Positions 4,159 through 48,966 of a stretch of 64,000 nt of DNA are shown here, one piece after another. The stretch comes from Branchiostoma floridae (taxonomy: Eukaryota; Chordata; Leptocardii; Amphioxiformes; Branchiostomatidae). Position 1 is the first letter of the stretch, and each line of letters begins with the position of its first letter. The stretch lies in contig NC_049982.1 in the NCBI RefSeq assembly GCF_000003815.2, positions 17,122,365-17,186,364 on the forward strand, in the 5' to 3' direction. The position numbers were made by a program, and so were the translations under genes. Below the pieces are notes generated by a model. The model saw only the letters and a list, made by a program, of their open reading frames with translations, searched no databases and was not told the origin of the DNA.

Positions 4159-4282
4159 TCATACTCTTGTGACAGGGAGGTCCACTGTCCTGACCAGGGT
4201 GGACCTCTCACTGGCCTGCTGTTTGACTTGGGAGTTACACATGGGACAGGTGTTCCTGATTTCCAGCCACTTGGAAATACAT
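4159..4282 (-). CDS. RING gene terminal coding exon (second half of RING, C-terminal tail)
   Basis: The acceptor TTTCACAG precedes 4282. The first base completes the split Lys codon of HRK, then [15 protein letters not shown] supplies the last three RING cysteines. A polar tail of about 25 residues follows and ends at TGA (4159-4161). The tail has no recognisable motif. Confidence 0.88.
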
Positions 4283-7200
4283 CTGTGAAATACAAGCAAT
4301 ATCAAATCATCCATGCACGTGTAAATCTTCAAAACTATCCCAAATCATAGTTACATAATACATTGTAAATGTATGTTTCTTCTTGTCATCACAGCATCCT
4401 TGGAGGAGTGGACAGAAGAGATACAATGTTCTTCCAAAGGTAGTTACTCAAGCATCAACGTAAGGAATGATCTTAACGAAAATGACATTTAACGCTAGTT
4501 CACCTTTATCCGTAGGGTAACCTATATCCGTTGCTTTAAAAAACAAGTATTTAGGGATATCAAGTCGACGGACGACAGTTTCAAACTACAATAGTTTGAA
4601 CGCATTACAACTTGATCCACCATCCGTCGACTTGATATCCATTAATACCATGTGTGTAAACACAACGAATATAGGTTACCCTGCGGATAAAGGTGAACTA
4701 GCATTAGATCTTTTATTGTACAAATACAGCAAATGTCCAGTTTTTATCACATTTCTTATATGTTGTGGTGACATGCTTCTGCAAAATAGTCAGGATAGGT
4801 ATTACTATAAGGAATGTGTATCTAAATATGGTGAATCTGCCAATATCACCTCTGGCAATTTGCTGACAGAAATAGATTGAAGTGGGAATAATTCAATAAT
4901 GTTGCCACCAGCACAGGCCTGTCTCCAGCTGCAGCTTTGATGGTTTTTTGTCCTACTCATTGTTTGGGATCCCATGTGCCTGGTTAATTTCTGTTGTTAC
5001 ATGTGTAATTCTAAACTTACAAAAATACATTTTCACCAATTTCATGTAATGAAGCTCAGATCTGTTTATAGACGGGGTGAAATTTCTGTCCTGGGGCAAA
5101 GGGACGGGTCCAGGAGACAGCCTAGCCTGGTTACCAAACCCCAGCCCGATCTCAAGTATCTATCGTGCAAGGAAACACAAAAGATATTTTTGAGGTTGGG
5201 GTATGGTATCCAGGCTAGAGACAGCCCTGTGTGAGCACAAGTGTAAGATACTCACTTTCTATGGAAGGCATGTCCACATGGACATAGCCCAATCTCCTCC
5301 ATCAGCTTGAAGTCTTCTAAACACACTGCACAGGTCTGCAGAGGACACACAGGGCATCCAGATGAACACAATGGATACCTCAGTGTCACAAAATCAAATG
5401 AAATACAGCTAGACAAAGACAATCTCTTTGGCAAGATCATTTTGCACATAATCTTGTTAGATCCTCAATAAATTCATGCTACATTTGGGAATACAATGTA
5501 CAGCAACTGGTTCAGACTAGGTAAACGTATTTGTAACAATTTAGCAAGACAAAGTAGCTCAGGTTCTGAAGTTGTAAAATGCAAAAACAGCACTAAAATT
5601 GACTGCATGTTTGCATATATGCAATTGAAAAGATTATTACAGGACTGGACCAGGTGAACACACAGGAAAAAATGATACCTAGTTTTGTATATGCATGTAC
5701 AATGGATATTTCTTAGTAGATCACACCTGGCCCGTATTTACATGAACGATCGTTATCAGTGTTCAGACAGATCTGTATTTTACGGTACAGTCCAGGGCTC
5801 CATAGTTCGGTTAGAACTCACTTGCACACATTTGTATTGAAAATTTTAATAACTGTTCTCAAACTAAATTGGCAAACTGGCGGTTCTTTTGTTCGAATTG
5901 ATGGGTAAAGCTGTTGGCACAAAGTGCATTTAATTTAATGTCAAGTTTTTTTCTCTTTTTATTTGCGATAAACTTGGGCGAAATACCTCGTGGCCTTTGG
6001 GCAAAATACCCTGTGTTGTACTTTACATATCTTCAAAATGTATGGCAACAAGTTAAGTACAGCAAACCACATTTATTCCATGTTTGTACTAAACTCAATA
6101 TCAATATTTGTAAAGACAAAAGTGTAATGGAAGTCAGAAAAATGTTCTCTCATCAGATGGTACTAGTCTCCCCTACCTTGTCAGAGAGGAAGTCCAACTA
6201 TAACCAGAAGCAGGATATAGAGGATAAGGCATAGAGGCACACAAGAATTAGTGCAGGTACATAGATCATCAAGGCAATGATGTGTGATAGTATGTGTCAC
6301 TGGGTGATATCTCATAATATATCTAGATGGCCCAATTTCAAGGACAGTGCTTTCATACAATTGTGTTCAATGAACAGATAACCCTGTATATACACAGAAG
6401 GTTACACAATGTATTTCAATGGTGACTGCATAGAACATGCAGGCCACACTTGAGCCATTGATATATTGGGACTTACGAAAAATCACTTAGTGACACATCC
6501 CTATCATACATGTACCTTATTTGTCTGAATTAGGCCATGCCAATTGATCTCCTTGGTTCTCAAATTTAAAAAAATGAAAATGTAGCAAGCAGATATCATG
6601 AAAGCATAGGGCAGAAAGGAAAACTTGTAATGTAAATGTATTCACTCCATAAAACTGAGTGCACCAAGGCATAAACCTGGCCCTCTGGCTTTGTTTTCAT
6701 ATTTTTTTTTTTAGTAATGAGCATATTTCTTTCTTTTTAATTCAAGAACCAACAAATCAAATTGGTACGGCCTTATAAAAGTATTACCAGCACATGAGAC
6801 TGAACGATAGAATGACAGCTCTTCACGTCGTTGACCCTCAGCAATCTGAAGTAGTCATTTGGCCCCCCAATTCTTTATTAGCTACGGAGTTACACATGTA
6901 GGTAGCAGGGGAAGTTTAGCAGCTTCCCTTTGTCCTGTATATAGGTATCCATGAAAACATAATGTACCACTTACCTCATTTGAAGAACATTTCTTTTTCT
7001 TGTATGTGATCTGAAATTGAACAACAGAAAAATGCTACAGATACATGAACATCTAGAACAGAATTACTCCTGGTAGCCACATGTGAGTAGCAGGTTTTTA
7101 ATATTTATAAACAGTGTCTAATAATTCTCTACTGGTTACAGCAATAAGCAGCAAGGTGCAGGTTAAAACATAGATCTGTGTAACATTACATCCTGTCTAT

Positions 7201-10200
7201 CATTAAGAGAATGCAATTAGACAGACTGAAATTGCTTGGGTGAAACTTACAAAATATCCAGGTTTAATTGAAGTGACCATTAATCATGTGAGCAGTATAG
7301 TGTGACCTGTCTGATATATAGTCTCATGCTTTTAAATATTATACAAATCCTCGATTGCTGTTACATGTAGTCCTTGATGTAGTTTAGAAAAAGGGCAATA
7401 TTCCCCTGGGACCAATTTGTAAGCCTGTATATTACCACTCATTTATTCACACATTTTAGCATAATTGACAACCATAACATCTGCCATTTGCAGTATATTC
7501 TTTTATCCTAGTATGTTGTTTGAAAATTGTAACATTCAATTGCAAAAATATTGTATCATTACATTCCAACCTCAACCTTTAAAGTTTAAGTGAATAGTTT
7601 ACGAAAATTAAAGTAAAACCAACCAAGTAACCATAAACTGATTTTTTTTAAATTTGTGTAAGCTATCACCAAAAAATTAGTACTGAGAAGTGCCATAAAA
7701 TATTCACCATCCTAAGGAGACTAAACCAGCTGCAGCTAGCCAATTTTTGTTGGGTTACAACCGTTACATTTACATACTTCATGGGTATATCCATCCTTCT
7801 GAGCAAGATACATAATGTAGTGGCAGGCACAATGTACACAAGGGCTGTAACCAACGCAATAGGCAACTGGAGGTGTTTTGGACACTGGTTGGTACATTAG
7901 ATTCTGCCGTGCCACTGATAGATTTGCTTGGAGATGATATACATGGAACAGATGGAGCAATACATTTTTGTATATAGGTGGGAGACCAAGCAATCTTTAC
8001 TGGGAGTAATACAACAGAAGTATAGCATAGGGTACATTTTGTACTAACATGTCATCACTTACAAAATGTAATGTAGACAGGACAACCTGTGTTACCTGTC
8101 TCCTGAGTCCAACAACTTCATCCCTGATTCTTTCGCCCAGGGCTTTAGCCAGCTCAATTTTTTTTTTTCCGTCAGCCAATTACACTCGTCACAAAAACCG
8201 CAAAAATTAATTAGAAGGACTGAACTGAAACCTTGAAAAACGGGGTTTAATGAGATTATCGTATGCGAAAGGGCACAGACACACATTAAAATTTTTCCGT
8301 CAGACGCAGCAAAATTCCGTCGATTGACGGAAAAACGAACGCTGGCTAGAGCCCTGCTTTCGCCCCTCCTGTGAGAATGCCAATTATTTGCTGCTGCTCT
8401 GTGCTGTGTGTTTCTATATTGAGCACTTGCCTGATTAGTGATAGCAGGAGAATTTATCCAATTGTCTATATAACCACTTGCACACCTTTCTCCAGAGACA
8501 AATTTGTAAAGACCTAGATTTTCGGATGTCTGCTCCCTCAATCTGCAAAAATCAATCTGACTGTCATCCGTCAACTGCTGTCCTCTGCCATGGGGTGTTG
8601 TGTCCCCATGTGACATTTCCATTCCAATAATGTACACATTTTGGCAATGTGAGATATCACATCATCACAACAGATGGCTCAGATGGTAATTTCAAGCAAA
8701 AATTGCCTGGAGACAGTCTCTACCACTATAATATCTAGATAAGAGCCCACTGCTACTGCTACCAACTGCTGTTTTATAATATTAGGTTTATTTTGATTAC
8801 GTTTCTAATAAAAATATTCTAATAATGCAACACACCCATTAAGGACACATGTTGACGTCAAAAGAATAGAATGCAAGTCATATACCATGTGAAACATGGC
8901 ATGTACACAACTTTTAATCAATTTTTAAGAGCCAATTAATAAAACATAACCCTGGCATCAATACACTGACATGACACTACATGACACGTAGCAGTCTATG
9001 TTGATAATTTCACAAAGAAGCTTTACTAGTCTCATTAAATGAACTTTGACTTTGGGGAAAACACACAAAAACGGTATAGGTATCAAATGTGTGTCAATGA
9101 AGGTTGGACATCCACGTGATAAGATACGCCAAAAAGCTCAAGCAACAGGATATGATTTTGCAAATGGTCAGATGACCATAGGTAGGGTATAAAACCTGCT
9201 CTTCAGCCATCTTTTATGTATCTGTCTATTCATTTATTTGCAATTGGCAGTACAATCAGTCAAGGTTACTTTTTGTCATTGTCACTGAAGAAAGATAGCA
9301 GGATAGCAGGATGCTATCTGAAATGTCTGACCGTTTCCAAAATCATACCCGTTAGTTGAGTTACAGCTTTTTGGCACATCCTGGTATTGTAGTATTGCGA
9401 GCACTCACCTTTTTATATCCCCTTTCCAGCCTTGCTTCTCTTCTCAATCTGTAACACAAAAGACAATTTTAAGGTTACATTGTAAAAAAAAAAGGAACAT
9501 TATAAGCAGTTATATTTTGGTGCAGCAAAAGACAATCTCAATCTAAAGGCAAATAAAAACACAGAAGCCAATAAGTATCAAACTCAATTACAAAGTAGCA
9601 GGTTAGTGTTATCTATGTCCTTCAATGGGTTTGCACCAGTGCATGGAAAATCATGGTCCAAAAAGACCATAACCTCCCAGTGGACCTATTTTGAACCTGA
9701 TTCCCAAAACAAACATACTAATTGGTTAATCCAAAGCAACCAAAGACTAAACCAAACCAGATGTATCAAAGCTTACAATTTTGTCATTTCCCCCTGAGAC
9801 AAATGCCCAAGGTATCCTAATTAGGACAAGGGTTGACCAACAAATAATATGTAAAATACTGGAGTTGAACAGGTGTTCAATGTATGATTAGGACCTAGAT
9901 CTGAACCTGACCTGAACCTAAATGTTCTAATCTACAATATTGTCTCACTATGGGGTTGATATTGAAATGTTTACAAAGGGATGCAGTATTGTATTGCTTA
10001 TTAAGTTGACATTCATTATACATGATTACAGATACTTCACATGCATTCCAGCTATAAAGTACAACAATGTGGCCTTTGTGGACATCACCACTCCAAATTT
10101 CATTACAATATTCATCCATCATCTTTATGATGGCTTTCACAAGACCTGCAAATGTAAAAATCATTCCACTTGACTTGAGTTACAAACTGGACGTGGGAAT

Positions 10201-13200
10201 GCCTCAGGCTGTAAATTGGTTTTTGGTAAATTGTCAACAGAAAATGATAAACAAATACACATTCAGTTTACTGGCAACACAAGTCCTGTATTTCAGTTTG
10301 TTTTGGGTAAGAAATAATTACAAGCTTGCTGACACACAACAAAGATCCAAATTCCCAGTGGGAATTAAAACAATTGATAGCATTGCAAGTGGATGGGTGA
10401 TAAACCATTTGTACTACTGGGGAAGAAGACACGACAATTGCAGTAGCTTTATATATACATTTGTAACTATAGGATGACAGTATGACTGAGGAAAGTCTTT
10501 TTGTGATTAAATTTTATCTACTGTTCTAACAGCAACTTAATTAGATGTACTGGAAATATGCCTCAAGCAACAGATTATCCTCACAGGTCAGAAAAGACAG
10601 TCTGTGGTTTAACGTGTCAGATGTAATGAGCTTTCACGGTACTTCACATATTGTGAAGTACTTCACATATTGTGAAGTACCATGGTATTGGTAGTCATAT
10701 GTTTTACCAAAAGTAGGCCATCTTCAGGTCATCATAAGGGACAACCTGTGCCATCCCACTAAAAATCCTTAAGCTACACACCTTCGACGGTAAAACCTTA
10801 ACATTCTATACTTAACATCACATAGTCGCCCACCTTGCCTCTCGCTTGATGTGACAGTAACAACAAGTACAACACCAACAGAGGAAGACACCAACAATGG
10901 CAATGCTGGGGGCCAGTGGCAGTATGACACTATATCCAATATCGTAGGGAACATCATGGTCAGTCATAGTGCAGTTGTACTCGAGTTGTCCAAAAGGTCA
11001 CATTTAAGTGTTCTCGTCCAGAAATAACATGGTCTAGCTCCCAAATTACATGTTGCAGCAACAGCTCAAAAACCAATTGTATCACGCAACAAGTTACACC
11101 ATTTTGTGTAGCAGTTGCACAGGTGACGTCAAAGATAGAGGTGGACAACAGCTTATGATACAGCCCACACCTCAGACAAGAATGCTTGCACGGAACAATA
11201 AACAAGGGATAATGCCTGAAGGTATGAACAATCCCACAAGGAACTCCCAGACGATTTCAATACCCTATACAATGTTTTAGATGCCTGTTTCCTATACTCA
11301 AAGGTATACTAAACACCAACAGAATTACAAGGCGTGGGCATCAAGGTACTAACTTGTTTGCCAAAGACTGTAAAAATTCTGCCAAAGAAGATAAATGCAG
11401 AAGTTTTGAGATGTTCCCAAGCTAGTTGTCAGACCTGTATATGGGTGTACACGTCACTGTACCCTTGTGCCCTCCACATACATTGTGCAACCAACTGTCA
11501 CAAGACCAGAAGCTATTATAATCAAGTCATTGTTAAGTACAAACAACCAAATTTATACATCAACATTCACAGGTTTACATCACAATTTCCAAATGTATGT
11601 CAGGTTTTAGGTCATTGTTGTAACATCTGCATGGTATTGACTTTAATATGTTGATACTGCTATAATCATAAAACTGATAAAATACAAATTTTACAATGAT
11701 GCAGAGTGAAATTAAGGAAAATGGATAACAGAGTAAACAGTAAAAATCAAATGCATGCTAATGTTTATGCATCAACATGGGTACAAATGTTTGCATACCT
11801 GGAAAACCATCTTTAATATGGCATAAAACACCAGGTTTGTGCTGAACAGTACAACTTGCATATTGGGACAAATTTGAATGATTCACTCAGACCATACTGG
11901 ACCCCATTCTTTTCTCAGTAAGGTTGGTGGGTTCTTTAACATGCTAGAGGTGCATTAGGCCCTCCTCAAACACAGGCCCTCCGTCTAACATCCTATCCAA
12001 GGAACCATCCTAACCGTAGCCACATTATAGGTACTCGTTTCATCTCAGTGAAGTGAGAAAATCGGTATTAAAAGTCCCTGAAAGGCCACAAAATTGGAGC
12101 ATATATCAGGGGACATGAATCCAGGATCTCTAGGCTTTGAGCCTATAACAACCTACCATAGCCCATTACAATACACCTTACCATTTTTCTGCGCTATACA
12201 ACATGTTATGATATGATATGTTATCAGCAAAAGTGCAATTGTAATCATTGATGCATAATAAATAATTCATAGTCTTATATTTTCAACAAGAGGAAACAAT
12301 GAACCCATTGCTACAAAAGGAGGTGGTATGGTATGGAGGTATAGTATGGAGGTATAGCATCACTATGTCACCTATAACCCACTCATACAGTCAAGCAAAT
12401 CCCTGTGCCATCTTCTAGTAGGCTAAAACAACTCAAAACCTTCATATTTTCCTTGGGGCTGTGGTAACAACTGGGAATGTAAGTCTGGAATAAGTTGCTG
12501 TAAACATGTTTGCCCCTACAGCAGGTCAACAGTTCAACTGTCCACCAGCTACAGGTTGTCATTAGATGGCAGAATAATGGAGTTGTTGTACAAACAGCTA
12601 ACATGGCCTGACTTTACAATGCGTTTTCAATGGTAAGGTTGATCTTAAATTGTCAAGTATGATATATTATGTCATAGTAAAAAAAAACATGTGCACAGTG
12701 TCTAGGACAGTGTGAATATCAGAATAACATTAAATTTTGTACATACAAATATAAAATAGTGTTCACACCACTTTGTGGCCCTAATCCAGTCACATATTAC
12801 AAAAATGACAGCACTGTATGTGTATGGTAATGCTGCAATGTGTACTATACTGTAATCGCAAAAACACATATACGTGACACATACACACGAACAGACGAGC
12901 CATACACAATATTTCACTCCCCTTTGATAAAGTAGCAAAGGTCCCACCAATACACAGTTTTTTCCAACCCTGCTGACATCCGGATTGCGACGTCAGGACA
13001 GTGAAAACAGTGAAAAAACCTCTTGTCCCTCTTGTCTAGTTTTCTTTCTTTTTTGATTTTGTTATACCCCAATTAAAAACGGGACAAAAAATCTCCTACC
13101 TGGGCCACGATAACGTTTGATATGTGACGTATCTTGCCATATCACACATTGTTTTACATGTATCACAGAGGCTTCCATCATATCAAAGACATCAAAATCA

Positions 13201-16200
13201 CTCAATGCGCCGAGTGCAGTGCAGTCGAAAGTAAGAGCATCAGATTCAGATGTTGGTATAACTATTTCTGTTGTTGCAATTTTGTGTTTGAGGACACCAA
13301 ATTTTCTCAACTTCTAGCATATTTCTCTTTGAAACATCTTCTTTGTTTTTTGGATGGGAATGACATTATATAGAATACAACGAGGTATATAAATGTATTC
13401 CGTATAACCATCGGTCCCAGCCCTTCCACAGGTTGGATAGCCACAGTCGGGCTGGACATACATGTATGATGATACAAAATATGCCGTGTTGTGTTCTACA
13501 TGATGTACACACCAAGTAGCACTGTAGTTGTGATACATTATGATAGATTTGGTTTCCAGCTACTAAAGACTGATTCTAATACTCTTGTAAACTTCTTGGA
13601 ATCACGAAGATACCTTTGTCAGTCTGATTTGACCAATCATTGTAAGGTCTGGAATGGTTCCTTCTATGCTCTATCCTTGATTCCTTATAGCTAATTTCTG
13701 TCACAGCCCTGTCCTAATTTGCGAAATCAACTTTCTAATATTCACCTATATAGAATATAGAATAAATCTGACTTCAGTCACAATACGTCAAAATGTGTCT
13801 GAGAGCCAGACAAGTCTGACAATGACATGTAGGTTAATAAGTTTGGGACTCAAAACAGCTATGAGATCATGCGATTTGTCTTCTTCCACGACTATATGCC
13901 AATAAGCCTGAACCATGACCTTCCGTACCCCGATATGTTGGCTTTATACATTTGCCCGAGCTGTTGGGTACTTGTGCTGAGGTGTCAGACAGATAAATCT
14001 GAGTTATTAGGTGGGATTTTCTGACATATGGAATAACACCATATAATTCCTGTTTTGACCAAAAAAAAAGCTGTCTCCAATCAGATGTTGGCAGTCACGA
14101 CATCTTGAAAAAACTGGGTGTACATGTAAATTGGGCAAAATAAATTAATAGCAGGCCACATGCAATGACTTCTGGAAGAGAATGATAATGATTATGATGG
14201 TAAAAGATTGCAGTACACCTTGTAATTGTCAACAGACTCAACACCATATTTTGCAGGCCTGGGGAATTATGCTTTATGAATAGACATTTTCCATCCATAT
14301 TCTTCTTTATTCTTAACCTTCTAATATTCTCATTGAAACAATAACAGGTTTGAGCCCATGATGTAGCTGTCAATAGTTGACATAGAATTCACTGTTGCTC
14401 TGAGTCAATGTTCCAGTCTGTTGCCACAGGGGAAAATTTTATATCATTCATGGCTTCCTTTCAGAATATCTTGTCATGGCATCACACATTTTCCCCTCCA
14501 TCCTGAAAACAATTCCTTTCCTTTCTTGGTTGTGATGAACAGCAGTGCAATTGAAACGCATTTCCCTTCTTATTGTTTTACTTTGATCTTGCGTTAGACA
14601 GAAAAAACATGGAGGCACACAAGGCCCCATAACCAGAATCTGCAGGGATGAGCCATTTTAGATAACAGTAATCCTCCTGCCTGAAAAGCAACTACATTTT
14701 GGGTTGATTACGTCACCAGTGACAGAAAATGGTTGACTCTGCAACGTCATTGCACCAAGGTTTGTCTACGAGGCTGTACCACAAAGGTCATCATATACTA
14801 TTCATGGAATCCCTCCATACGCCATTTTCCTATTGAAAACAGATCACACCTTTGCTTTGTGTCAACTGCTACAAGTAATTTTTTCTCATGACACAATCCA
14901 AAGATTCTGATACCACAATTACAAATCACATTCAATCATCATTCCACACCGCCACCATTAACATTATCTACATCCTGTATAGTGTACCGCACATCAGCAT
15001 CACGTAGGCTAGCTCATTGTAAAATCAATTAAACCAACCCCTCCTATCCCTAGTGTATCAGTTATAAGATCTTCAACCTACCTGCTATGACAGAGGTAAC
15101 AGCACATACACAGTGCTACCAGCACTAGACACATATAACAGGAGAAAACGGCAAGTCCAACCATTGCAATATCACCATCTACAGCCTCCTCCATGGCTGG
15201 CAGAGCTTCCTGTTATACTTAAGGCCTCCTGGGAACGCCAGCAAATTGCTTATCTGCTTCTGAGATGGGCAACAATTAAACCGGCATAACAGCAGGCCTA
15301 CAGTCTGATAATGCACCGAGAGTTACGCAGACTCTATCTCCAAATTTATATGACAAAGACAATATAGATCCTGCCATTACCTCATGTACACACACATATA
15401 TTAATGTGGAATAAAAAAAAAACATGTGAATCGTACATGCACAGCAGCATTTACCACATCTTCATGGCATATCCAGAGGAGTCTGCTAATGTTATGAATG
15501 GAATATATAATCATCAGTGAAAAGGTTGCTTTATTATGATTAGTGCAAGGGCATCAGAGGGCCACGCAACACTGACCACAAAAAGTTCTAATGGTAAGCC
15601 ACTAAGAAATTCCCATTTAAGATCAGTTCTGGAGATAAGTGTTGGGTTCTGATTGATTTTCAATATGCCGGAGGGTTGTGTGTTAATTGTGCCAAGTCTG
15701 CAGATCTGCTCCCCGTATTCTATTCACATCACACACACGTTCAGGTCTACTCTGCAACATGGGACACATACTGACATAGGCAAGAATATAACATGGATGT
15801 GGATTTATGCAGTCTGATGGATGGGTGTTATTACCATGCAGCCCACAATATTTCAGCGGGCATGAACCTGCCTAGCAGTCTTAAGTTATATCATGACAGG
15901 AAGATATAATGCTGTAGTGCTGAAGGCCAAGCTAACAAGCAACTGCTGTTTAAAATTCATGGTAATTTCCTTTGCCGAGAAGGATTTCTTTTCGTTATGT
16001 GTGTGTTTGTGTTAGTTAGTTAGTTAGTTTGTTTGTTTGTTTGTGTGCAGAATAACTCGAGAAGCTACAAATGGATTCTTACATTGAATGTGGGAAGGGG
16101 TCGAAAAGAATCAAGTTCATTAAAGGACCTTCAAGCAGCTTTCTATTGTATTTCTACAAACTTCTGATTTGGATATCTCATCCTCTGTGAAAATTCAAGC

Positions 16201-19200
16201 GTCCCAGACGGTGAAACGCCGTTTGCGACAACCGTCCAATGCGTCTCAAATTATTGGGACGCTTTGGACGGTTATGGCAGCGGACGGCATGGGACGGCCT
16301 TTAGAACGCCCGAAGAAACGTCAAAGACGGCCCGAACGGCATAAAAAACGCTTGGACGCGTCTAGATTGGCACTTTTGACGCGTCCAGAGGGACGTCGGG
16401 GCCGTCCGAAACGGCATCTGAAAGCGGGCACCCAGACGCTCCCGCGTCCGTAGGGCGCCCCCCCCGCTGGGAACAGACGTCTCCGCGGGCAAACCGGACG
16501 CCGATTGCGACGGACGTAGATGACGTAATCCAGGCTGCTGGGACGGTCCGGACGCCGATTGGGACGGTCGTAGATTACGTGATCCAGGCTGCCAGGACGA
16601 ACTGTAGCCTTCGCCAGGCCATCCCACGGGGGTATGGATCGTAAAATTCGACAGAAAATGGAATAGCCAAGGAATAGCCAATAGAGTCAGTCATCGCCAA
16701 GGTTAACATCTGGACCAAACGTCTAGCAAACTTTTCTCCTTCAAGACGCAACTTGTAGTTTAATAGTAATATAATAGTCAGGCAGTATGGGAGGGGCATT
16801 TGGAACGTGTGCAGACGGCTTTCCGGACGCCGTTTCTGACGGCGTCTGGTCACGGCTATGATTTTATGGCCTCTAGGGATAAGCGTTCCCACATACCAAA
16901 CATACAAATATTCAGCCAGGCAGTGAATTGTAGAAGACCACCCACCACCGGGCCGTCAGGTTTAGCTAAAATCAAACACAACTTGAACAAATTTCTTCCT
17001 AAATTCAGACATACACGTACTCCGCGGCGTTTAATCAACTTTGCTACATGTACGAAATTCAATCCGGCCTTCAATCGTGTCCACGCCTTTTTGTGCCGCC
17101 GTGCCGACACGTTACATCAGAATGGACGAGCCCAAATAACATCAAGGGTAAATACAGGACGTTTGAAATTTTCTATCGTAAATTTTAATTGCACCAGTAT
17201 TTATTAAAGACTGGATATATAAATGTGAAATAACGTTAAATTTTCTACAAAGATCATAAGTCATTTTTATTTCGAGGTAGCGAAATAAAGTCTTCCGTTT
17301 CATAAGTTCCTAACCCCAAGTAGTTGGAAGAGCCGACTAAGATTTTGATTGGCACCGGCAAAATCGGTAGGTGCTATCTCATTATCTGTTGTCTAAATCT
17401 ACATTTTAACAGCATTATCATTCTTAATAGAAACAACAGATATTTTTTACAAGTATTCTACAACGTGTTCATAATTCTTTTTATTTTGTGGCATCAAAAC
17501 AAGATCCTAAATTTTATCATTTCTTCGCGTATGTGGGGAGGGCACCCGTAACAACAAGTCGTCGGTAAACTTTGCAACAGATGAATGTACAAAAAATGAG
17601 AATAAAATGCGAAGTATTCACTTACCGGCGCCTGCAAAGTATCGACAATCAGCTAACGCTAGAACCGCTGCTTCTTTTGACGTCTGTCACATCTGTGATT
17701 TCTGCTGTCCAAGGTTTGCTGCTTCGAGTAAGTAGTATAATTTTTCCCCCTTGTCGGCGCACGACAAATAATTTTTGTACATTCTTTTTAGTATAAATAA
17801 CGGATACAGTCATCGCCGTAAACCCAACCTCAGCACAATGTCGTACAAACATCAGCTGCTACGTCTAGACGTGAAGTCCTTGGTCCAAAAGTGCGCAAAA
17901 TTTAACAAACGGACATGAAATCCACAGAAATAGTCACCTTCTGAACATAAGTCCTGCAACCGCCGGAGTGTTCAACGGTCTGAAATTCGAATTCACCCGC
18001 TGAAATTGGCGCATGTGCAGAAGTTAAAACGTCATGTTTCCCGTGGGGATCATAAGAAAAGACGCAGCCGTCTGCCGGCGTCGGGTGACTAAGTATTTTA
18101 TAGCCCCGTCAGTGGCCGTCTCCGACGGCAATGGAAGGTCTTTCAGCCGTTCGGGCGTTCACCATAAAAACTGACAGAACGGCACGGACGCTCACGATGT
18201 GTCCGCGGCCGTTTTGGACCGCAATGAACGCGTCCAGAACGTCTGAAACGCGCTCGGACGCCATTGGACGCTTGTAGACGCCGTCCGGGCAGTTTCGGAC
18301 GCTTGAATTTTCACAGAGGATGTCCTTGACATGCTAGGGATGTGATTTTTCAGCGGTCTTAGTGTAGGTATGCCCGGAATTTGTCAGAAACTTTAAAAGA
18401 GAATTACTCACAGGTTTAATGAACTGTCATGATGTTAAGTAAATTAGTAATTAGATGCTCACAATGCAAGTCATGATCTAATTTGCCTAATCAGTGCGAG
18501 AATTTATAGATCTGCTACATTCCATGATAGAATTCTCGAGAATATAACATATGTAACTAAGAAACATTAGGCATATTGCCAAATATCAATTATGCAAATG
18601 AAGACTTCATTTGCAAAATCAATGAGAATATATTAAAAATCTACAGAAGTAGATGACAGGAATTTCATACTTGTAGCATTTGGAAGTTATTTACTTATTC
18701 ATTTTGGGAGTTAAGTAAATGTAACATCAATAGATAAAAATCATGCAAATTTAGGCCCCATTTAGATAATCTATGAGGAAACACTACTGTACAATAGATT
18801 TCTTTGCTGACATAAGACTTCATGTTTTGAACAACTTGTGTTATTCAGGTAGAGAGGTTGATCAAATATATCATCTATGCAACTGAGAACCTTTATGATA
18901 TGTCACTCAAAAATGTGAACATCATTTAGCAAAGGTATAGGCCAATGAGGTCATGAAACTGTAGCCCAAACAATATGTTTTCTTCCTGCTGGTTTCCTGA
19001 TTTGTATGTCATCATGTCAGTTTAGATTCTGAACTTCCAGGCAAATTGAGCACTGATATAAACTTTTATCATCAGATTTCATGTGTACCATAACCAAACG
19101 GTGCCAAACTGCACAAAAACATACAATCATGTATACTGGAAGTTACATATTACGATGAACGCATATCCATGCATGCCTGACCAAGACTAGTATATAGTTA

Positions 19201-22200
19201 ATCAGTCTTGCCCTGGAATGTCAATAAGGCTTGATCTAGTTTTCCCCGGGAGGGTCTTTTTAGCGAATGCCCACAAACGCCCACTCTAGAGAAGTCCGCG
19301 CTGCATGAATCTCATTTTTTTTGCTTGGGATATGTCCACGTTGTGCTCCCATGTATTAATCCTGAGTTTCAAGTCAATCCATCGACCCGAAGTGACATAA
19401 ATCAAAGTTTCGATTCTCGATGGTCTTTTTAGCGAACGCCCAGTAAAATGTCTTTTTAGCGAATGCCCACTATATCCACAAAAATATCGGCCGTCGCGCA
19501 ACGACACCTAAACCTACCGCCACAAACATGTTCAAGATGGTGTCCCATTGATGTGTACGGAGTTTCCGTGCTTTACAAGCATTTTAAGTCCCTGTTTTTC
19601 GTCAAAATGTACAGCGCCGATACTGCCATACTTTAACAATGGCAATTCAAAATGGCGGGCACTAGTCATGTGACCTCCTTGCGGGACTGTTCTATAAGTA
19701 TCGCGGGAGGGACTGTTGTAGCATAGCTTATCATACAACCATTTTAGATTGAATTCTGAACAAGATTTTCAATTCATAGTGCTATCATCTGACAGATATT
19801 TACATTGTGGTCCTTTTTTCTGTGCTATAATTACCCAGGTTTGAGGAACTTAGTGCAAATATGGATATTCACGGTGGTCAAATACGGGCTCAAAATCTCC
19901 CATGTCTAGCCGAATTCGAACCTTCTTCGATGATGTTCCATCTGACGTAATTCGAACGGAACCCGTGTTCTATTTAGGTCATCTGCGGTCATTGCAGGTA
20001 AAACCGTGCTTTCTGGCATTTTCCTCCCAACTAACTTGAATCAGGCGAAAAATATAGTTTTTAACCAATATAAAAAATTTTCTGGACATTACATCTATGC
20101 TTTCACTTTGTTTGGAACCTGTAATATGTAACGAAGCTACTGGCGTTTTTGTTGGTGACCTTGAATATCATAAGTGTTGTTTACACCGGTATCAATAACA
20201 CCCTCCCGCTCTCCGTGCGGCATGACATGCGTGCAAACATCGTTTAAGATCTCCACCAAGAATAGTCCAACATAACTCATTGACGGCTCAAAATGACCGC
20301 AACGGTTTTCCCGAGATTTCTGTTTTTGGGATTTTTAAAAAATGCCTTAGATTTTGAATTATTGGTAATTAAGTGCGAAAAATGCCATTTTTACGCATAT
20401 TTTTGACTGTAACTTTGCTTAAAATTAAAAATTAAAAAATCCCAAAAACAGAAAGTTTTATTTGCCTCTCAGATGACGAAAAATATAAAAATCGAGAATT
20501 TGCCATGGCACTTGCGGCCCATCTTATCAAGAGTATGGTCAAATTGAAGGCCTTCCTAGAAACAGAAAAAAAATCGTCTTTGGAAGCAAAATCGAAACGA
20601 AACAACTATCTCAATTCAAACGGGAAGATTCAAACTATCTAAAATTGCGAATTTAATCTTATTTTGAATACATTTTCCCTGTCATAACATCTTGTTTATT
20701 TTGAAATATTTTACGGTTAGCAAATAGTAGTCCTCTTGTAACCCGATACTCTTTCGAACTCGCATAGCAACGGGAAAGAATACCCTAGCAACCGACCGCC
20801 GTGATTGATTCTCCTCAGTGCCCAATTAATGTACAACAGGCTCAGACACATTAGTGTTATAAACCTGACTAGGGGCAGGTAACCAATACTAGAAAAACAT
20901 AGCTATTCATTATTAACAATACTATTTACATTATAATAATAACTCTTCACCAAACTGGACTTTTCTTATCTTTATTTATCACAGAAACATTGTTACAATG
21001 AGGATTTGATTAGATGAGTATCTGTTACAGTGTGTACAAACTTATTTCAAATACAAAAATGTATTTCATTTCACTTCCTAAATATTTTTAAAGTATTGGA
21101 AGAGGTTGACACATAAACAATATTAATTGCATTATTTGTGTGCAGAAAAATGTGACCACATGCTATTAATAGCCTATTTAATATAGTAATAAAATATTGG
21201 AACATGGCATGAGCGGGCTCCTCTTCTGAGTACAGAAAGGAAATGTTTTATAACATTTAGTTATGACGTAGAAAATTTCAATTGTAAAATGTACCTTTAT
21301 TAACATTGACAAACAAATTGTTTTTCTCTTCTTAATAAATGACGACAATACAGGTAAGTAAGGTGTGTTTCCTTTTATAACAGGCCAGGTAAGACGCCGT
21401 ACAGGTAAATAAGGTGTGTTTCCTTTTGTAGCAGACCAGGTAAGACACCGTACAGGTGAGTAAGGTGTGTTTCCTTGACTACAGATTAGTAAGACACCGT
21501 ACAGGTGAGTAACGTGTATTTCCTTTGATTACAGACCAGGTAAAACACCGTACAGGTGAGTAACGTGTATTTCCTTTGATTACAGAGCAGGTTAGACACC
21601 ATACAGGCGAGTAACGTGTATTTCCTTTTATAACAGGCCAGGTAAGACACCGTACAGGTAAATAAGGTGTGTTTCCTTTTATAACAGACCAGGTAAGACA
21701 CCGTATAGGTGAGTAAGGTGTGTTTCCTTTGCATATAGACTAGATAGTGTAGTATACAGGTGAGTAAGGTGTGTTTCCTTTGCCTATATACCATATAGGC
21801 CATCAAACAGGCGAGTAAGGCGTCTTTCCTTTGCCTATAGACCAGATAGGGCATTATACAGGTAAGTAAGGTGTCATTCCTTTGCCTATAGACCAGATAG
21901 GGTATTATACAGGTGAGTCAAGCAACTTTCCTTTGCCTATAGACCAGATAGGGTATTATACACTTAACTTACCTGTACAATACCATACATGTNNNNNNNN
22001 NNNNNNNNNNNNNNNNNNNNNNNNNNNNNNNNNNNNNNNNNNNNNNNNNNNNNNNNNNNNNNNNNNNNNNNNNNNNNNNNNNNNNNNNNNNNACTTGGTC
22101 TGTAATCAAAGGAAATACACGTTACTCACCTGTACGGTGTCTTACCTGGTCTGTTATAAAAGGAAACACGCCTTATTTACCTGTATGGTGTCTTACCTGG

Positions 22201-25200
22201 CCTGTTATAAAAGGAAATCCACGTTACTCGCCTGTATGGTGTCTAACCTGCTCTGTAATCAAAGGAAATACACGTTACTCGCCTGTACGGTGTCTTACCT
22301 GGTCTGCTATAAAAGGAAACACACCTTACTTACCTGTACGGTGTCTTACCTGGTCTGCTATAAAAGGAAACACACCTTACTTACCTGTACGGTGTCTTAC
22401 CTGGTCTGTAGTCAAGGAAACACACCTTACTCACCTGTACGGTGTCTTACCTGGTCTGCTATAAAAGGAAACACACCTTACTTACCTGTACGGTGTCTTA
22501 CCTGGCCTGTTATAAAAGGAAACACACCTCACTTACCTGTATTGTTGTCATTTATTAAGAAGAGAAAAACAATTTGTTTGTCAATGTTAATAAAGGTACA
22601 TTTTACAATTGAAATTTTCTACGTCATAACTAAATGTTATAAAACATTTCCTTTCTGTACTCAGAAGAGGAGCCCGCTCGTGCCATGTTCCAACATTTTA
22701 TTAGACTATTAATAGCATGTGGTCACATTTTTCTGCACACAAATAATGCAATTAATATTGTTTATGTGTCAACCTCTTCCAATACTTTAAAAATATTTAG
22801 GAAGTGAAATGAAATACATTTTTGTATTTGAAATAAGTTTGTACACACTGTAACAGATACTCATCTAATCAAATCCTCATTGTAACAATGTTTCTGTGAT
22901 AAATAAAGATAAGAAAAGTCCAGTTTGGTGAAGAGTTATTATTATAATGTAAATAGTATTGTTAATAATGAATAGCTATGTTTTTCTAGTATTGGTTACC
23001 TGCCCCTAGTCAGGTTTATAACACTAATGTGTCTGAGCCTGTTGTACATTAATTGGGCACTGAGGAGAATCAATATCCATATTTGCACTAAGTTCCTCAA
23101 ACCTGGGTAATTATAGCACAGAAAAAAGGACCACAATGTAAATATCTGTCAGATGATAGCACTATGAATTGAAAATCTTGTTCAGAATTCAATCTAAAAT
23201 GGTTGTATGATAAGCTATGCTACAACAGTCCCTCCCGCGATACTTATAGAACAGTCCCGCAAGGAGGTCACATGACTAGTGCCCGCCATTTTGAATTGCC
23301 ATTGTTAAAGTATGGCAGTATCGGCGCTGTACATTTTGACGAAAAACAGGGACTTAAAATGCTTGTAAAGCACGGAAACTCCGTACACATCAATGGGACA
23401 CCATCTTGAACATGTTTGTGGCGGTAGGTTTAGGTGTCGTTGCGCGACGGCCGATATTTTTGTGGATATAGTGGGCATTCGCTAAAAAGACATTTTACTG
23501 GGCGTTCGCTAAAAAGACCATCGAGAATCGAAAACTTTGATTTATGTCACTTCGGGTCGATGGATTGACTTGAAACTCAGGATTAATACATGGGAACACA
23601 ACGTGGACATATTCCAAGCAAAAAAAATGAGATTCGTGCAGCGCGGACTTCTCTAGAGTGGGCGTTTGTGGGCATTCGCTAAAAAGACCATGCGGTTTTC
23701 CCCAACATCTGTGGGGCGGATATTATCTTAGTCAAGATGTCCGCAAAATGTCCCCCAACAAGGCTGGAGTGTTGACAACATCTGAGAGGACTTATTAGCA
23801 GTCTATTAAAAAACATGCAATTATCTTAAACATTTAACATGCAATAAGTCTTAGACATTTACAAGTTGTTGTTGTTATTCCACGCATTTCACCATAGATC
23901 TAGAAGGAAAGTCAGGCCGCCATATTGGTTGGTCAATGTTGGGGGTTTGCATGGGATGACAAGACGGTGGTCCATAGATCATAGCATAGCACATTTTATC
24001 ATTACCAACTCGAAATACAATGTAATTAACGGATGTATACAAAATGTATTTCAGTCTCAAATATAAGCATGTACATTTGAATATATCCTATTTTGAAATG
24101 TGCCTAATGGCTTTAAAAAATTGGTAAATACCAAAAAGACTCGCTGCATGTTTTTTTATTTATAGATGCACAATGCATCCAAGGCTAGGAATAAAGTGCT
24201 CCTTATTAAACCTGTTTGTGGTCCTTTGTGGTGTTTAGGCATATCTCTGACTTTGATAGGACCTTGTGCTATCACACAATTCAAATTCAGAAATATACTA
24301 CTAGTAGTGAAAACTGCACTTGTACTATCAGAACTAGGGGTGGGTATCAGAAATTCAGGTCCAGGTATGGTTCAGCTCCAGAGGGTCAGATCCAGGTCTG
24401 GACCTGAACCTGGACATAATTATCTGTGAGAACTTATGAATAGCTGATGCTCCAAACAATGGTCCATTTCACTACAAAGGATTCTGTTTGGTGGAGTATC
24501 AGTCTGTATCTATATACCCGATATAACCGCCCTTCGGCGTAACGCACCAGCTTTGCAGGCACACAGCAGCAGCTGGTTATACTAAACTGAACTGAACAAC
24601 CAGTCACAGCTAACCTTTGTACATCTATTTGACGTCCATTGGCGTATTAAAATTTTATCTTCATGTAAACAACGGCAACTTCCTCTGTCTTAGACCAAGT
24701 TTGACCGTAAGAAAGCTTGGTAAAAAATTATCAACTCTACTTCGCTCTTGTTCTTTTCTTGGACCTGTAAGCTCAAAAACACGCGAACGCCTGCCGACAT
24801 AATCTGTTCATTTCAATTCAATCCAACATCCGGTCCACTGATGTTTTTCAGGTCCGCATGTACAGGTCCAACAAGAAAACACGGTTTTGTACCAGTACCC
24901 CACCCCTAATCAGAACAAAAGATCTGATACAGTTATTTCGGTCACTGCATGTTATCCCTTTATTGAATATGACGTCTAGTAATGATGAACCACATCATCA
25001 GGTGGGATGTCTGTCCTAATTGGCCATTAGTCAAAATTGGTCAAACGGCATGTTTGCTCATGGTTTGTGCCTATTACAGGAATCAGACTGGGTGATGACG
25101 TTAGGACTTCACAAGCTTTTCATCATGTTATTTATTGTAAGTAATGTATTTGAGGAAATGCAAGCTGATTTCCTATAAAATACAAATGGGATGTAAAATG

Positions 25201-28200
25201 TATGACGATATCATACGTGACATACAATGTAAATGTAGATGCGACCAAAAATGAGGAAACGGGATACCGACAGTCATGGATCATCGAGTGACGGGAAAGA
25301 TGACATGTGCCTGTAATGTCCACAGTTTGGCCCAGCATCCCAGTCACCCCAACTCTCAATAACTGTACTAGTAGTGGATTCTTTGAATAAGTTAACTTCA
25401 GGCTTCAGGCCAAAATACCAAGACAACATATTGACCTCATTCAGAAATAAGATATCTTTTACAGGTAATTTTTTTTTACATGGAATGTGCTCATTTCTCG
25501 CGTAAGTATTACAACAACCACGCATGACATATTCCCATTTTGCGGCAGCAATTTCTTCCTCTGCAGCAAAAATTTCTCCACCATTTGGGCCTGCGCAAAT
25601 CTAGTAATTAGCTGCGCAGTGACCTCCGCCCTCACGTGACTAGTCTAGCTCCAGTCTAACATGGCCAAAAGGTGCCGACAGGCGTAGTTTCTAGTGTTCC
25701 ATTTTATTGCTCATATTTCGAAGAATTAAAGTTCTCTTCCAAGCCCACTCAGGTCTCCCTGCCATTACTCGGAGTGAGAGTGCAGATAATCTGTTGTGTA
25801 CATGTAATCAGGGTTCAACCTTGTCGTGTTTCGCTATCTGTCAAAAAACAATCCACATGCAGGTTTAGTCTTAACCACAGTCAAATTTCAGCAATTGCAT
25901 TTGTTGCAATTGAACCTGAACAAGATGTCTGGAGGATAGCACGCAAGTCCAATGTGCAGGACCTTCCTGGAGTGGAACTGATGCCTTGGCTGCAAGATGA
26001 TTTACATGGAAAGTAGATTGGTTTTACCTCTAGTTTGACATGGGCTATTGATCGGAATGTCACTGGTAAAGATAAGAAATGAGCTTGGTCCCCTTCAACA
26101 AGTTCAAGGGAGGCAAACTGCATAACTAATGAGAAGGCTCAAGTTTCAACATTGGCATGTGCAGGGCAATGCTGAGCTTCCTTTGCTACACAGTTCTCTC
26201 AGAAGATGAAACAGCAGGCTTTCTTGCCTTCTTACTAAATCAAGAGGCATTCACTATGCATGATCTTTCCTCTCAAACTTCCCATGCTCCTACTTTTGGC
26301 TTCCCATCACTCTCACATGGGGGTGCCGCAGTCTTTAACAGGGATAAAAGCTGAGTTCTTTAGCCAGGGGACTGGTCATCATGCTTACCAATTGAATTTG
26401 TTGGCTCTCGAATTAAAAAAAAAATAAAAATAAAACATGCTTAACAGGAAAAGCATACTGAAAACAAAGCCCAGGAACCAGGTTTATGGCTTGGAGCACT
26501 CAGTTTTAGGAAGTGAATACAGTCATATTCAAGTTTTCCTCCCTGCTTTTTGCTTTTATGCTGTCGATTGCTATATTTCACTTTGAAAATAAAAAATCCA
26601 AGAACCAATAAATCAAATTGGTGTGGCCTTATGTCACCTCGACAAATACAACAGGATAATCTAGTAATTTGAGGCAACTTTGATTCTGGTGATCCATTTG
26701 GAAACAGAGAAACTTACCATTCCATTGTCACTAACTTAAAAGCAGAAACTTTTTAATTTAAGACAAGTGTCTTTCCTAATCAAAGAAAATTTTTTTACAG
26801 AAATTCTGGTTTACATTCAAAATAGATCGTTTAGCTTCAAAATGATAGATCTACACAATCATGCATTTAGGCATTGTGTTTTCAAGATAACATCCACTAA
26901 TCGGCTAAATCTATATGGAATGCATTCAGCTATCTTGTCAATCTGCATTACAACATTATATGTTGTTTTTGTTTATAACATGTCAAGAAGAATGTTGAAC
27001 TGTTTTTTTGCTACAAGGTTTGGAGAAGTTATACTATAGTGCACACACCAGTACTGTACATGCATGTACAATGCCATGTATATATCTTGTAAAAGAACCG
27101 CTGTTCAGCTGAACAGACAATTCATCAACCTATCTTTTACACACAGACATACAAAATGTATCCACAAACCACACTGCCACATGTAAATCAAAATACATGC
27201 TACACTGTATCACTATAGAGGACAGTAATGAACTTACAAATTTTCTAGGTTTGGCAGTTCAGAAAGAATACATCTGTACAAAGAGACACAGAAAGAAATA
27301 GACATAAAAGAATGATGCAAATCAAACAGAAAGTATGATTCCAATACACTTTGTATAATCATCAATATGAATGAATGATTGCAAAGAATGATTATCAGTA
27401 TGAATGAATGATCGTGAAGAATGATTCCAATGCATTACTAGTATCAATATTGTACGTGTCCAGTTGATATAGCTTCAGAGTACTGGGCTTGAAATACCAC
27501 CTGCATATGCAGGTTATTAGTGCAAGTAAAATTGGAGCCGTGGAGGTATTTCTGGTGTCTACATGTACCTGCACCTACTAGTAACCTGCACTGGTCCATG
27601 TACTGGGTTTATATATCATGTTTCATGGCTTTTGTCGGCTGACTGTTACCACCTATGAAGCATAAAAGAAATAATGGCAATGGTTTCTGAACATATTTTA
27701 GTATGATCAATACTTCCTAAATTCTGAGTGGTACAGGTCAAAGTGCGGGTAAGTTCCAATGTTACATGCATATGTGCAGGTATGCAGAAAAAAGTATTTC
27801 AAGCCCTGGAGTACTACAGTGGATTTTCATGAAGATGCACTTCATGCACATCTATCCTTTATACTTGTTAACATGATTTATGATTTATGAATAAGGCATC
27901 TTAAATGTGGCCTTGCACAAATACATACCTCTGGTAAATGAGGTTTGGACAGTTTGCATTTGCTTAGCATAGCTGTATATAATTTTCAAGATATACATAT
28001 GGAACAGGTGCAAAATAGAACAATCATCATCAGTCAACTGAAAACAATTGACAATACTCTCATAAATTCTGCAAATTTACATGGTGTCTGAATGTCACAG
28101 TATTTATCAGTACCTAAAAATACATGACATTGTGACATTCTAGACATTAAGGCATAATACATTGTAAAGCTTCTCACTAGTTACGTAAATAACATCCCTG

Positions 28201-29101
28201 CATAATTTAAACCTTGTAATATACATGAAAATTGCTACCTGAAACTGATGAATTGCATATTAATCTTATCTCCTAAATTTGATTTCAATCATTTAATACA
28301 TTGGAACCACTATGTATTCATACTAATTATCATATAGCTTAACGACATTGACCAATCAGAAGGCCCCATTTCATGTTGGTTATGACACCGTAAAACATAC
28401 AATTGTCGAATGCCACAGTTTAAATCTCAGAGACAAGTTTAGACACAAGAGTGAAGGGTAGCTGTGGGACACGCACAGGAGAAACATCCAACAGCTGACA
28501 AGCAGGAATGTGAACAGACCGGAGGAAATCGGGCAAAGTGACACAAGACAGAAGCCGGTCAGTTTGTATAGCTATAGGCTATATGATGATATTGTTGATA
28601 ACCTGCCTATTCCTCTGAGTACTAGTATAATTGGTATCATAACACCTGGTCATTTGCTATAACCATGTCATAAACCCACCTTGTTTGCTTTGCTAAGTGG
28701 ATTTATTTGGTGGTGACACAATACACCTTGGGTGGGTCATCAACAATCAATTAAACAGATCATTCTTTTTCATTTTGAGAAAATTTCTACATCGCAGGAG
28801 GATTAAGTTTCAGTAAGAAAAAAGAATTATCCAGTTAGAAGTCCAAGCTCCATGAATCTCAATTATAGAATTATTTTCCAGGTAGCATTTACATGTATGA
28901 ATTCTGAGATACAATACAATGATTAAAAATGATTAAAAAAAAACACTGAACACTAAATGATTAAGTCACTTACCTGACAAGGTAACAGCAAAATATGAGG
29001 CTCAACACGAAGATGAAGAGACCTACGCTGATCATAGGCAGAGACACACGGAAGTGTAGGAGCATGTCTGATGACATCATGTATGTTGGTGTCAGGTACA
29101 T
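4159..29101 (-). CDS. RNF24/RNF122-like membrane RING-H2 E3 ubiquitin ligase (whole gene, longest-span isoform)
   Basis: Predicted membrane-anchored E3 ligase that recruits a ubiquitin-loaded E2 through a RING-H2 domain. Joined exons on the minus strand: 29101-28974, 9448-9409, 7010-6975, 5335-5256, 4282-4159, giving 135 aa; vertebrate RNF24 and RNF122 are about 150 aa. Residues 21-42 are hydrophobic and end in FCCYLV, as in the RNF24/122 transmembrane segment. A basic juxtamembrane stretch ([13 protein letters not shown]) follows, then the [19 protein letters not shown] and CPMC supply the C3H2C3 ligands, with the conserved W-L-E in KWLEIR. All junctions are GT/AG and phases match. The gene spans about 27 kb including the non-coding first exon at 31.2 kb. 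Other exons at 15.1 and 10.9 kb can replace the first coding exon. RNF24 versus RNF122 orthology cannot be settled; it may be the single pre-duplication relative. Confidence is high for family and shared exons. Confidence 0.88.
4492..4708. mobile_element. Fold-back MITE, copy 1
   Basis: An imperfect palindrome of about 215 bp. It opens with CTAGTTCACCTTTATCCG and closes with the inverse, CGGATAAAGGTGAACTAG. A second inner inverted pair, GGATATCAAGTCGACGG and its complement, lies around 4555-4640. A related copy lies at 46058-46285. Ends read TAAYGCTAG on both sides, so any target duplication is ambiguous. No coding capacity. It sits just upstream (in gene orientation) of the last RING exon, in the intron. 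Confidence 0.75.
5114..5226. mobile_element. 95-bp MITE with 9-bp target duplication
   Basis: A palindromic element at 5123-5217 has inverted ends TAGCCTGGTTACCAAACCCC and TAGCCTGGATACCATACCCC. The direct repeat GAGACAGCC flanks both sides (5114-5122 and 5218-5226). Nine-base duplications are typical of Mutator-like elements, but no transposase is present. It is inserted 30 bp inside the intron between the two RING-encoding exons. Confidence 0.75.
5256..5335 (-). CDS. RING gene exon encoding first half of RING-H2
   Basis: Acceptor CTCTGCAG precedes ACC TGT at 5335 and donor GTGAGT follows 5256. It encodes [20 protein letters not shown] followed by GHAFHR: the first Cys pair, the third Cys and both His ligands. 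It ends in phase 2 (AA of a Lys codon), matching the A at 4282. Confidence 0.92.
5336..6974. other. RING gene intron; nothing further recognised
   Basis: AT-rich intronic sequence between the 36-bp exon and the RING exon. No exon, RNA gene or clear repeat was found on either strand. Confidence 0.5.
6975..7010 (-). CDS. RING gene 36-bp micro-exon
   Basis: Twelve codons ([12 protein letters not shown]) lie between acceptor TTTCAG and donor GTAAGT, phase 0 to 0. It bridges the juxtamembrane region and the RING, at the position of a similarly short lysine-rich linker in RNF24 and RNF122. Because it is in phase, skipping would keep the frame. Confidence 0.82.
7011..9408. other. RING gene intron
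   Basis: No established exon. A minus-strand frame at about 8096-8179 encodes an amphipathic-looking stretch ([20 protein letters not shown]) and ends at a CAG/GTAACA donor in phase 0. This could splice to the 36-bp exon, but no acceptor or ATG is evident, so it is not called as an exon. Around 8170-8340 several CCGTCAGAC/GTCGATTGACGG motifs resemble repeat debris. Confidence 0.4.
9409..9448 (-). CDS. RING gene 40-bp juxtamembrane exon (common acceptor for alternative 5' exons)
   Basis: Acceptor TGTGTTACAG precedes 9448 and donor GTGAGT follows 9409. The single first base completes an AG/A Arg codon; 13 codons follow ([13 protein letters not shown]), ending in phase 0. It matches the arginine-rich region with the conserved GYK motif directly after the membrane segment of RNF122. 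All three candidate transmembrane exons end in phase 2 with AG and fit this acceptor. Confidence 0.87.
9449..10833. other. RING gene intron with small double palindrome
   Basis: No exon recognised. At 10639-10683 a GTACTTCACATATTGTGAAG palindrome occurs twice in tandem, a compact hairpin of unknown meaning. Confidence 0.45.
10834..10967 (-). CDS. RING gene alternative 5' coding exon (transmembrane variant at 10.9 kb)
   Basis: ATG at 10967-10965, with A at -3, opens 44 codons plus AG, ending at donor AAG/GTGGGC. It starts [17 protein letters not shown] and continues into a hydrophobic, cysteine-rich membrane segment ([14 protein letters not shown]) and basic KREA. It ends in phase 2, exactly as the 29.1-kb and 15.1-kb exons do, so joining to 9448 keeps the frame and gives a 137-residue protein. 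It lies only 1.4 kb upstream of the common exon, implying its own promoter, although no TATA box was recognised. An upstream in-frame extension was not excluded. Call based on sequence logic, not transcripts. Confidence 0.68.
10968..15081. other. RING gene intron
   Basis: No firm exon. On the minus strand at about 13099-13149 a short frame starting MCDMARYV ends at a CAG/GTAGGA donor in phase 2, compatible with the common acceptor, but has no membrane segment and no other support. The rest is AT-rich DNA without recognisable features. Confidence 0.4.
15082..15194 (-). CDS. RING gene alternative 5' coding exon (transmembrane variant at 15.1 kb)
   Basis: ATG at 15194-15192 in a good start context (GCCATGG) opens 37 codons plus AG, ending at donor CAG/GTAGGT. 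A short acidic start (MEEAVDGD) precedes a hydrophobic segment ([20 protein letters not shown]) and then CYLCHS. The phase-2 AG end joins in frame to 9448, giving a 130-residue RING-H2 protein. The acidic outside, hydrophobic core and Cys-rich inner boundary mirror the other two variants although the residues differ. Inferred from phase and hydropathy, without transcript evidence. Confidence 0.68.
16010..16045. repeat. Simple repeat (GTTA)n then (GTTT)n
   Basis: Four-base microsatellite, TTAG units changing to GTTT units, next to the GACG-rich element. Confidence 0.85.
16179..18322. mobile_element. 2.1-kb GACG/CGTC-rich element with terminal inverted repeats
   Basis: Both ends carry the same inverted sequence, CATCCTCTGTGAAAATTCAA followed by GCGTCC, within AT-rich surroundings. 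About 400 bp at the left and 300 bp at the right are strongly GC-rich and made of degenerate GGACGC/GCGTCC words that can fold within and between arms; the centre (about 17.1-17.9 kb) is AT-rich. No transposase-like frame was found. A clear target duplication is not visible. It resembles a non-autonomous cut-and-paste element with arrays of subterminal repeats, but no superfamily is assigned. Confidence 0.7.
18323..19238. other. RING gene intron; nothing recognised
   Basis: AT-rich DNA between two transposable elements, without exon or repeat signal. Confidence 0.5.
19867..20806. mobile_element. 934-bp CACTA-like element nested in the left palindrome arm
   Basis: The element occupies 19870-20803, starts CACGGTGGTC and ends with the inverse of CACGGCGGTC. 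The trinucleotide ATT flanks both sides (19867-19869 and 20804-20806). The opposite arm has the uninterrupted site with a single ATT (complement at 23072-23074). A three-base duplication and ends starting CAC fit CACTA/EnSpm-type elements. No transposase is encoded, so it is non-autonomous. Confidence 0.8.
21350..21992. repeat. 51-bp minisatellite, left half
   Basis: Tandem units of 51 bp contain ACACCGTACAGGTRARTAAG, GTGTGTTTCCTTT and ACAGACCAGGTAAG, about twelve copies with drift, worse toward the gap. Because 51 is divisible by three, open frames run through the array; they are not genes. Confidence 0.9.
21993..22092. other. Assembly gap (100 N)
   Basis: Exactly 100 N at the apex of the palindrome, inside the minisatellite. 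The round length suggests a placeholder, so the true size is unknown. Confidence 0.97.
22093..22542. repeat. 51-bp minisatellite, right half (inverted)
   Basis: The same 51-bp units as the left half in opposite orientation, about nine copies, ending at the same boundary (CCTGTATTGTTGTCATTTAT). Confidence 0.9.
24327..24916. mobile_element. 574-bp hAT-like non-autonomous element
   Basis: The element spans 24335-24908. It begins TAGGGGTGGG and ends CCCACCCCTA, a perfect 10-bp inverted end of hAT type, and is bounded by the 8-bp duplication ATCAGAAC (24327-24334 and 24909-24916). Inside, AGGTCCAGG-like words recur near both ends. No transposase frame. Confidence 0.85.
24917..28973. other. RING gene intron; no exon recognised
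   Basis: AT-rich DNA upstream (in gene orientation) of 15.1 kb and downstream of the 29.1-kb exon. Short tandem words around 27360-27430 (ATGAATGATTG) are the only structure noted. Isolated donor-like sites occur but none follows a convincing coding frame. Confidence 0.4.
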
Positions 29102-29117
29102 GTAGAAACTGGGAAGA
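28974..29117 (-). CDS. RING gene transmembrane exon (29.1-kb variant), RNF24-like
   Basis: Acceptor TGTTGTAG follows a pyrimidine tract before 29117; donor GTAAGT follows 28974. The first ATG in the exon (29101-29099) opens 42 codons plus AG. Several in-frame ATGs follow, and MSSD at residue 9 resembles the MSSD start of vertebrate RNF24. The membrane segment ([19 protein letters not shown]) is the closest of the three variants to RNF24/122. Phase 2 at the donor fits the exon at 9448. Confidence 0.85.
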
Positions 29118-48880: not shown

Positions 48881-48966
48881 GACGGTTGTCGCAGGTCGTG
48901 ACCTTTGAACTAAAACCTGATACATCGATCATATGTGAGTATGCGTATGTGTAATGCAGGTCAGCC

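Follow-up and report, generated by a model that had tools for sequence, protein, structure and literature searches.

Organization of the locus

The window, by which we mean the whole 64,000-nt stretch of Branchiostoma floridae DNA analysed here (GCF_000003815.2, NC_049982.1:17,122,365–17,186,364), carries on its minus strand the exons of what appears to be a gene for a single-pass RING-H2 ligase of the RNF24/RNF122 type with three alternative first coding exons, a reading to which we assign a probability of about 0.6. In each of these exons, designated E28, E15, and E10, an ATG precedes a hydrophobic segment with a cluster of Cys residues, and the exon closes with a donor in phase 2. E28, read from the ATG at 29080, occupies 28974–29080 (−) and ends with the donor CAG/gtaagt. 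E15 (15082–15194, −), whose ATG lies in a good start context (GCCAGCCATGG), has an acidic N-terminal end and the donor CAG/gtaggt, and E10 (10834–10967, −), also acidic at its N-terminal end, has the weakest donor of the three (AAG/gtgggc). Each donor leaves an AG that becomes an Arg codon once the base at 9448 is added; the acceptor of the exon beginning there ranks at the 99.4th percentile among minus-strand AGs with a rough matrix. From this acceptor onward the predicted path is common and lies entirely on the minus strand: an exon for a 13-residue basic juxtamembrane stretch (9409–9448), a 12-residue exon (6975–7010), an exon for the first half of the RING-H2 domain (5256–5335), and an exon for its second half and the C-terminus (4159–4282), with the stop at 4159.

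When E28, E15, and E10 were spliced by script to the common 3′ exons, proteins of 128, 130, and 137 residues, respectively, were obtained in frame. This verified the proposal of the preliminary description that the exons ending at 28974, 15082, and 10834 all combine an ATG, a hydrophobic Cys-containing segment, and a phase-2 donor after AG, and all fit the acceptor at 9448; the sharing of a single acceptor, in a matching phase, by several exons that each bring an ATG is what is expected of alternative first coding exons. A 21-nt stretch at 6177–6197 (−), encoding LDFLSDK just before the RING and preserving the frame, is a putative optional microexon identified on sequence grounds. Two observations speak against the assignment of three exons. 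The G+C content at the third codon position, which is 0.66 for E28 and 0.52 for the common 3′ exons, is lower in E15 (0.43) and E10 (0.45), and hence does not mark the latter two as coding; in addition, E10 is overlapped by a second frame having its own hydrophobic stretch and a donor at 10782. The frame ending at 10782 is devoid of the CCY motif described below, and was judged less likely than E10.

It also speaks against this assignment that E28 is separated from the other exons by a palindromic element at 19253–23689, in the middle of which lies the single run of N in the window, a 100-N gap at 21993–22092. The arms of the element are 92.7% (20804–21782/22107–23074) and 99.4% (19253–19869/23072–23689) identical. 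Misassembly was considered as the origin of the palindrome and set aside, as a 9-base direct repeat (GTTTTCCCC) located just outside both of its ends speaks for an inserted element, probably a foldback or Mutator-like insertion. E28, on the far side of the gap, is in the right orientation, and its distance to the other exons is uncertain. The palindrome also contains a 51-base tandem array (21349–21962 and 22093–22541), the unit of which matches both a splice donor (CAG/GTGAGT) and an acceptor (TTTCCTTTTATAACAG). In the right-hand array (22093–22541), these matches are in the sense of the RING gene, and the acceptor at 22506 scores equal to that at 9448.

Elsewhere in the window, ORFs at 47475–48928 (−) resemble a TMX2-type thioredoxin-related membrane protein; the ORF at 48164–48928 gave a Pfam thioredoxin score of 16.7 bits (cut-off, 23.5), and the other ORF in this interval matched no Pfam family. 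ORFs at 51557–54570 (+) encode two fibronectin type II domains and CUB domains, and probably belong to one gene. An Rfam search of the whole window yielded no match at the gathering score.

Identity of the encoded protein

The RING scored 55.3 bits against Pfam zf-RING_2 (cut-off, 27.3), and the closest solved structure was the RING of human RNF24 (2ep4; E-value, 5e-23), with the next match at 2.2e-13 among the best 60 of 72 structure matches. As no RNF122 entry was present among these best 60 of 72, RNF24 and RNF122 are not separable by the RING. The arrangement of a single membrane segment, judged by hydropathy alone, placed directly before the RING and ending in FCCY is seen in full with E28 and in part with E15 (MCCY) and E10 (TCCY); the human RNF24 and RNF122 anchors also end in an FCCY stretch, like that of E28. 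The zf-RING_2 and 2ep4 matches and the FCCY of E28 together uphold the earlier assignment of an RNF24/RNF122-type RING-H2 protein with an anchor before the RING.

The anchors were further compared with the N-termini of human RNF24 and RNF122. In this comparison, shuffled sequences scoring as well against RNF24 and RNF122, respectively, numbered 0/2000 and 0/2000 for E28, 0/2000 and 78/2000 for E15, and 27/2000 and 232/2000 for E10. Being the best match among the three to the RNF24/RNF122 anchors, E28 is taken as probably the ancestral anchor exon. A Hemotin model that matched E15 and E10 (E-values, 0.032 and 0.045; 14.4 and 13.9 bits, with a cut-off of 27) was rejected, since only the layout of a membrane segment plus Cys residues is held in common.

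Comparison of the three anchors

The runs free of Asp, Glu, Lys, Arg, His, Asn, and Gln are 24, 27, and 29 residues long in E28, E15, and E10, respectively, and CCY is found close to the junction in all three. The net charges are 0, −4, and −3 on the N-terminal side and +2, +2, and +3 on the C-terminal side in the same order, which fits an N-out/RING-in orientation with a cytosolic RING. In pairwise tests, 0/2000 shuffles were as good for E28–E15, 5/2000 for E15–E10, and 92/2000 for E28–E10. In six-frame searches of the window, the E28 query found E15 at an E-value of 0.036, outranked by a pair of unrelated places (0.026), and did not find E10; the E15 query found E28 (0.040) and E10 (0.055) behind unrelated places at 0.015 and 0.021; and the E10 query found E15 (0.078) behind unrelated places at 0.008 and 0.030, and did not find E28. 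Because the sisters of every anchor exon rank below two or more unrelated places, common descent of the anchors is not established by these searches. The characterization of the three segments as alike in layout with little sequence in common is a fair one in view of the CCY present in all, the mixed outcome of the pairwise shuffles, and six-frame scores no better than those of unrelated places.

The background level of this six-frame similarity is also in line with another explanation, namely that E28 is the sole real exon, whereas the frames of E15 and E10 are open by chance and happen to adjoin sequences resembling donors, the gtgggc donor of E10 pointing in the same direction. Both strands of the whole window were scanned for an ATG followed by a hydrophobic 19-mer and a phase-2 donor, with thresholds (donor, 9.6 bits; hydropathy, 2.25) that were set post hoc from the weakest of E28, E15, and E10, and with approximate donor and acceptor matrices. 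At these thresholds, E28, E15, and E10 were the sole phase-2 matches (three on the minus strand and none on the plus strand), phases 0 and 1 were empty throughout the window on both strands, and shuffling of the 19.7-kb region produced one match in 1000 shuffles. At 7.5 bits and 2.0, the 19.7-kb region gave five phase-2 matches on the minus strand, none on the plus strand, and one minus-strand phase-1 match, with a shuffle mean of 0.035 (n = 200); the two extra matches, ending at 12157 and 10782, again favor chance. At the loosest setting (3 bits and 1.6), which adds a candidate at 12769, six minus-strand phase-2 matches were found in the same region against a shuffle mean of 1.07 (n = 200), with at least four matches in 6 of the 200 shuffles and five at most; the controls gave two matches per phase on the plus strand and one in phase 1 on the minus strand. 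Considering the rarity of matches in the shuffles, the emptiness of the plus strand and other phases at 9.6 bits and 2.25, the CCY close to the junction, and the good start context of E15, we regard an origin of E15 and E10 by chance as unlikely. The frame at 12157–12248 (−, phase 2; donor, ATG/gtaggt) was inspected as a fourth anchor exon and kept as a weak candidate, its uncharged run being just 11 residues long.

Use of the putative first exons

E15 or E10 might instead start another transcript by joining an acceptor other than that at 9448. This acceptor ranks only seventh among the 1026 acceptor-like AGs from 28973 to 9448 (rough matrix), so that others are available. The donors of E15 and E10 are, however, both in the sole phase that 9448 needs, and no other gene was found here, the domain scan of minus-strand ORFs in this part of the window having covered 8092–8661, beyond 9448, with no family detected. 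Joining of E15 or E10 to a different acceptor seems improbable.

All six tandem joins tried, i.e., E28 with E15 (three trial 5′ ends), E28 with E10 (two), and E15 with E10 (one), reach a stop before the RING, from which we infer that a single anchor exon is included in each mRNA. The preliminary description had invoked separate promoters for the three exons. This part of it receives no support from the sequence: no CpG-rich stretch is present in the 500 bases upstream of the ATGs of E28, E15, and E10 (observed/expected CpG, 0.25, 0.34, and 0.37, respectively), and candidate acceptors are located upstream of E28 and E15. Among the 47 TATA-like words on the minus strand, two are upstream of E15 and none is upstream of E28 or E10; one of two CRE words is located upstream of E10, at 11131.

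A single promoter upstream of 29.1 kb, with E28, E15, and E10 spliced as alternative internal exons that each bring their own start codon, is a realistic possibility, though we hold it at less than an even chance. The acceptor candidate before 15228 (98.9th percentile among minus-strand AGs with the rough matrix) would make E15 an exon of 147 nt, the acceptor-like sites before 29282 and 29358 (97.5th and 98.0th percentile) could serve E28, and the early stops in all six tandem joins are in keeping with such splicing. A methylated transcribed gene body is expected to be CpG-poor, and the CpG-poor DNA extends to ~30.5 kb, covering E15 and E10; the observed/expected ratio per kb is 0.13–0.54 at 0–16 kb, 0.49–1.37 at 16–26 kb, where repeats are included, and 0.19–0.30 at 26–30 kb. 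On the other hand, E28 need not be internal. Its outer boundary had been placed at 29117, a base that does follow directly after an AG, but this AG is a weak acceptor, at the 85.5th percentile. E10 has no good acceptor nearby, the best one (95.6th percentile) being at 11215, 248 bases before the ATG. Furthermore, a CpG-rich and partly G+C-rich stretch at 16000–17250, containing a short 54-base tandem repeat, begins ~0.8 kb upstream of E15; it may represent either a promoter or a repeat. The sequence does not choose between promoters and splicing; with splicing in place of promoters, the control would differ and the products would be the same.

Discussion

RNF24 and RNF122, proteins of 148 and 155 residues, have been reported at the Golgi (PMC10357820) and at both the ER and Golgi (PMC6669922). 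They are described as little characterized, and the yeast Golgi ligase Tul1 has been named as a protein of which they may be the counterparts (PMC6669922). One review describes them in its text as having two predicted membrane segments and in its table as single-pass (PMC10357820), and RIG-I is reported to be ubiquitinated by RNF122 (PMC9424811). The lancelet protein resembles both in being a small membrane protein with a predicted cytosolic RING-H2 and, in E28, with FCCY at the end of the anchor, whereas its gene would differ in having three alternative anchor exons. To our knowledge, the vertebrate RNF24 and RNF122 genes have one anchor exon each.

The closest precedent is offered by KChIP1–4, subunits of Kv4 potassium channels, in which alternative promoters and optional exons attach variable N-termini to one core, likewise through alternative N-terminal exons; some variants contain a membrane segment and others palmitoylation or myristoylation sites, and their localization differs (PMC3973911). 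KChIP is an unrelated protein, and the membrane segment is present in some variants and absent from others there, whereas here it would be exchanged for another. Among the titles listed for RNF24 isoforms, none describes alternative-anchor isoforms, and the open-licence literature, judged mostly by title, yielded no small E3 in which one anchor replaces another; searches combining amphioxus with RNF24 returned only work on GnRH genes, and those with RNF122 returned nothing.

In the mechanism that we envisage, each first exon would supply the start codon, a short N-terminus, a membrane segment, and a Cys cluster at the cytosolic face, and would join the acceptor at 9448, so that the basic juxtamembrane stretch and the RING are common to all products. 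With one anchor exon per mRNA, in RNAs that are themselves predicted from the DNA, the basic stretch behind the anchor would keep the RING cytosolic, and the longer and Cys-richer anchors of E15 and E10, together with their acidic N-terminal ends, may alter lipidation, sorting, or the choice of intramembrane substrates. We tentatively suggest, as an idea still open to considerable doubt, that one RING is combined with three anchors of old origin, each evolving on its own and differing by degrees in length, number of Cys residues, and charge of the N-terminal end; exchange of the whole anchor would then set the membrane and the intramembrane clients that are ubiquitinated.

If the RNAs exist, the locus would constitute a natural swap experiment within one gene, with the same catalytic end on three anchors, and would allow a direct test of whether a small E3 owes its compartment and its substrates to its membrane segment. 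By means of such alternative anchors, one E3 could be placed in different membranes.
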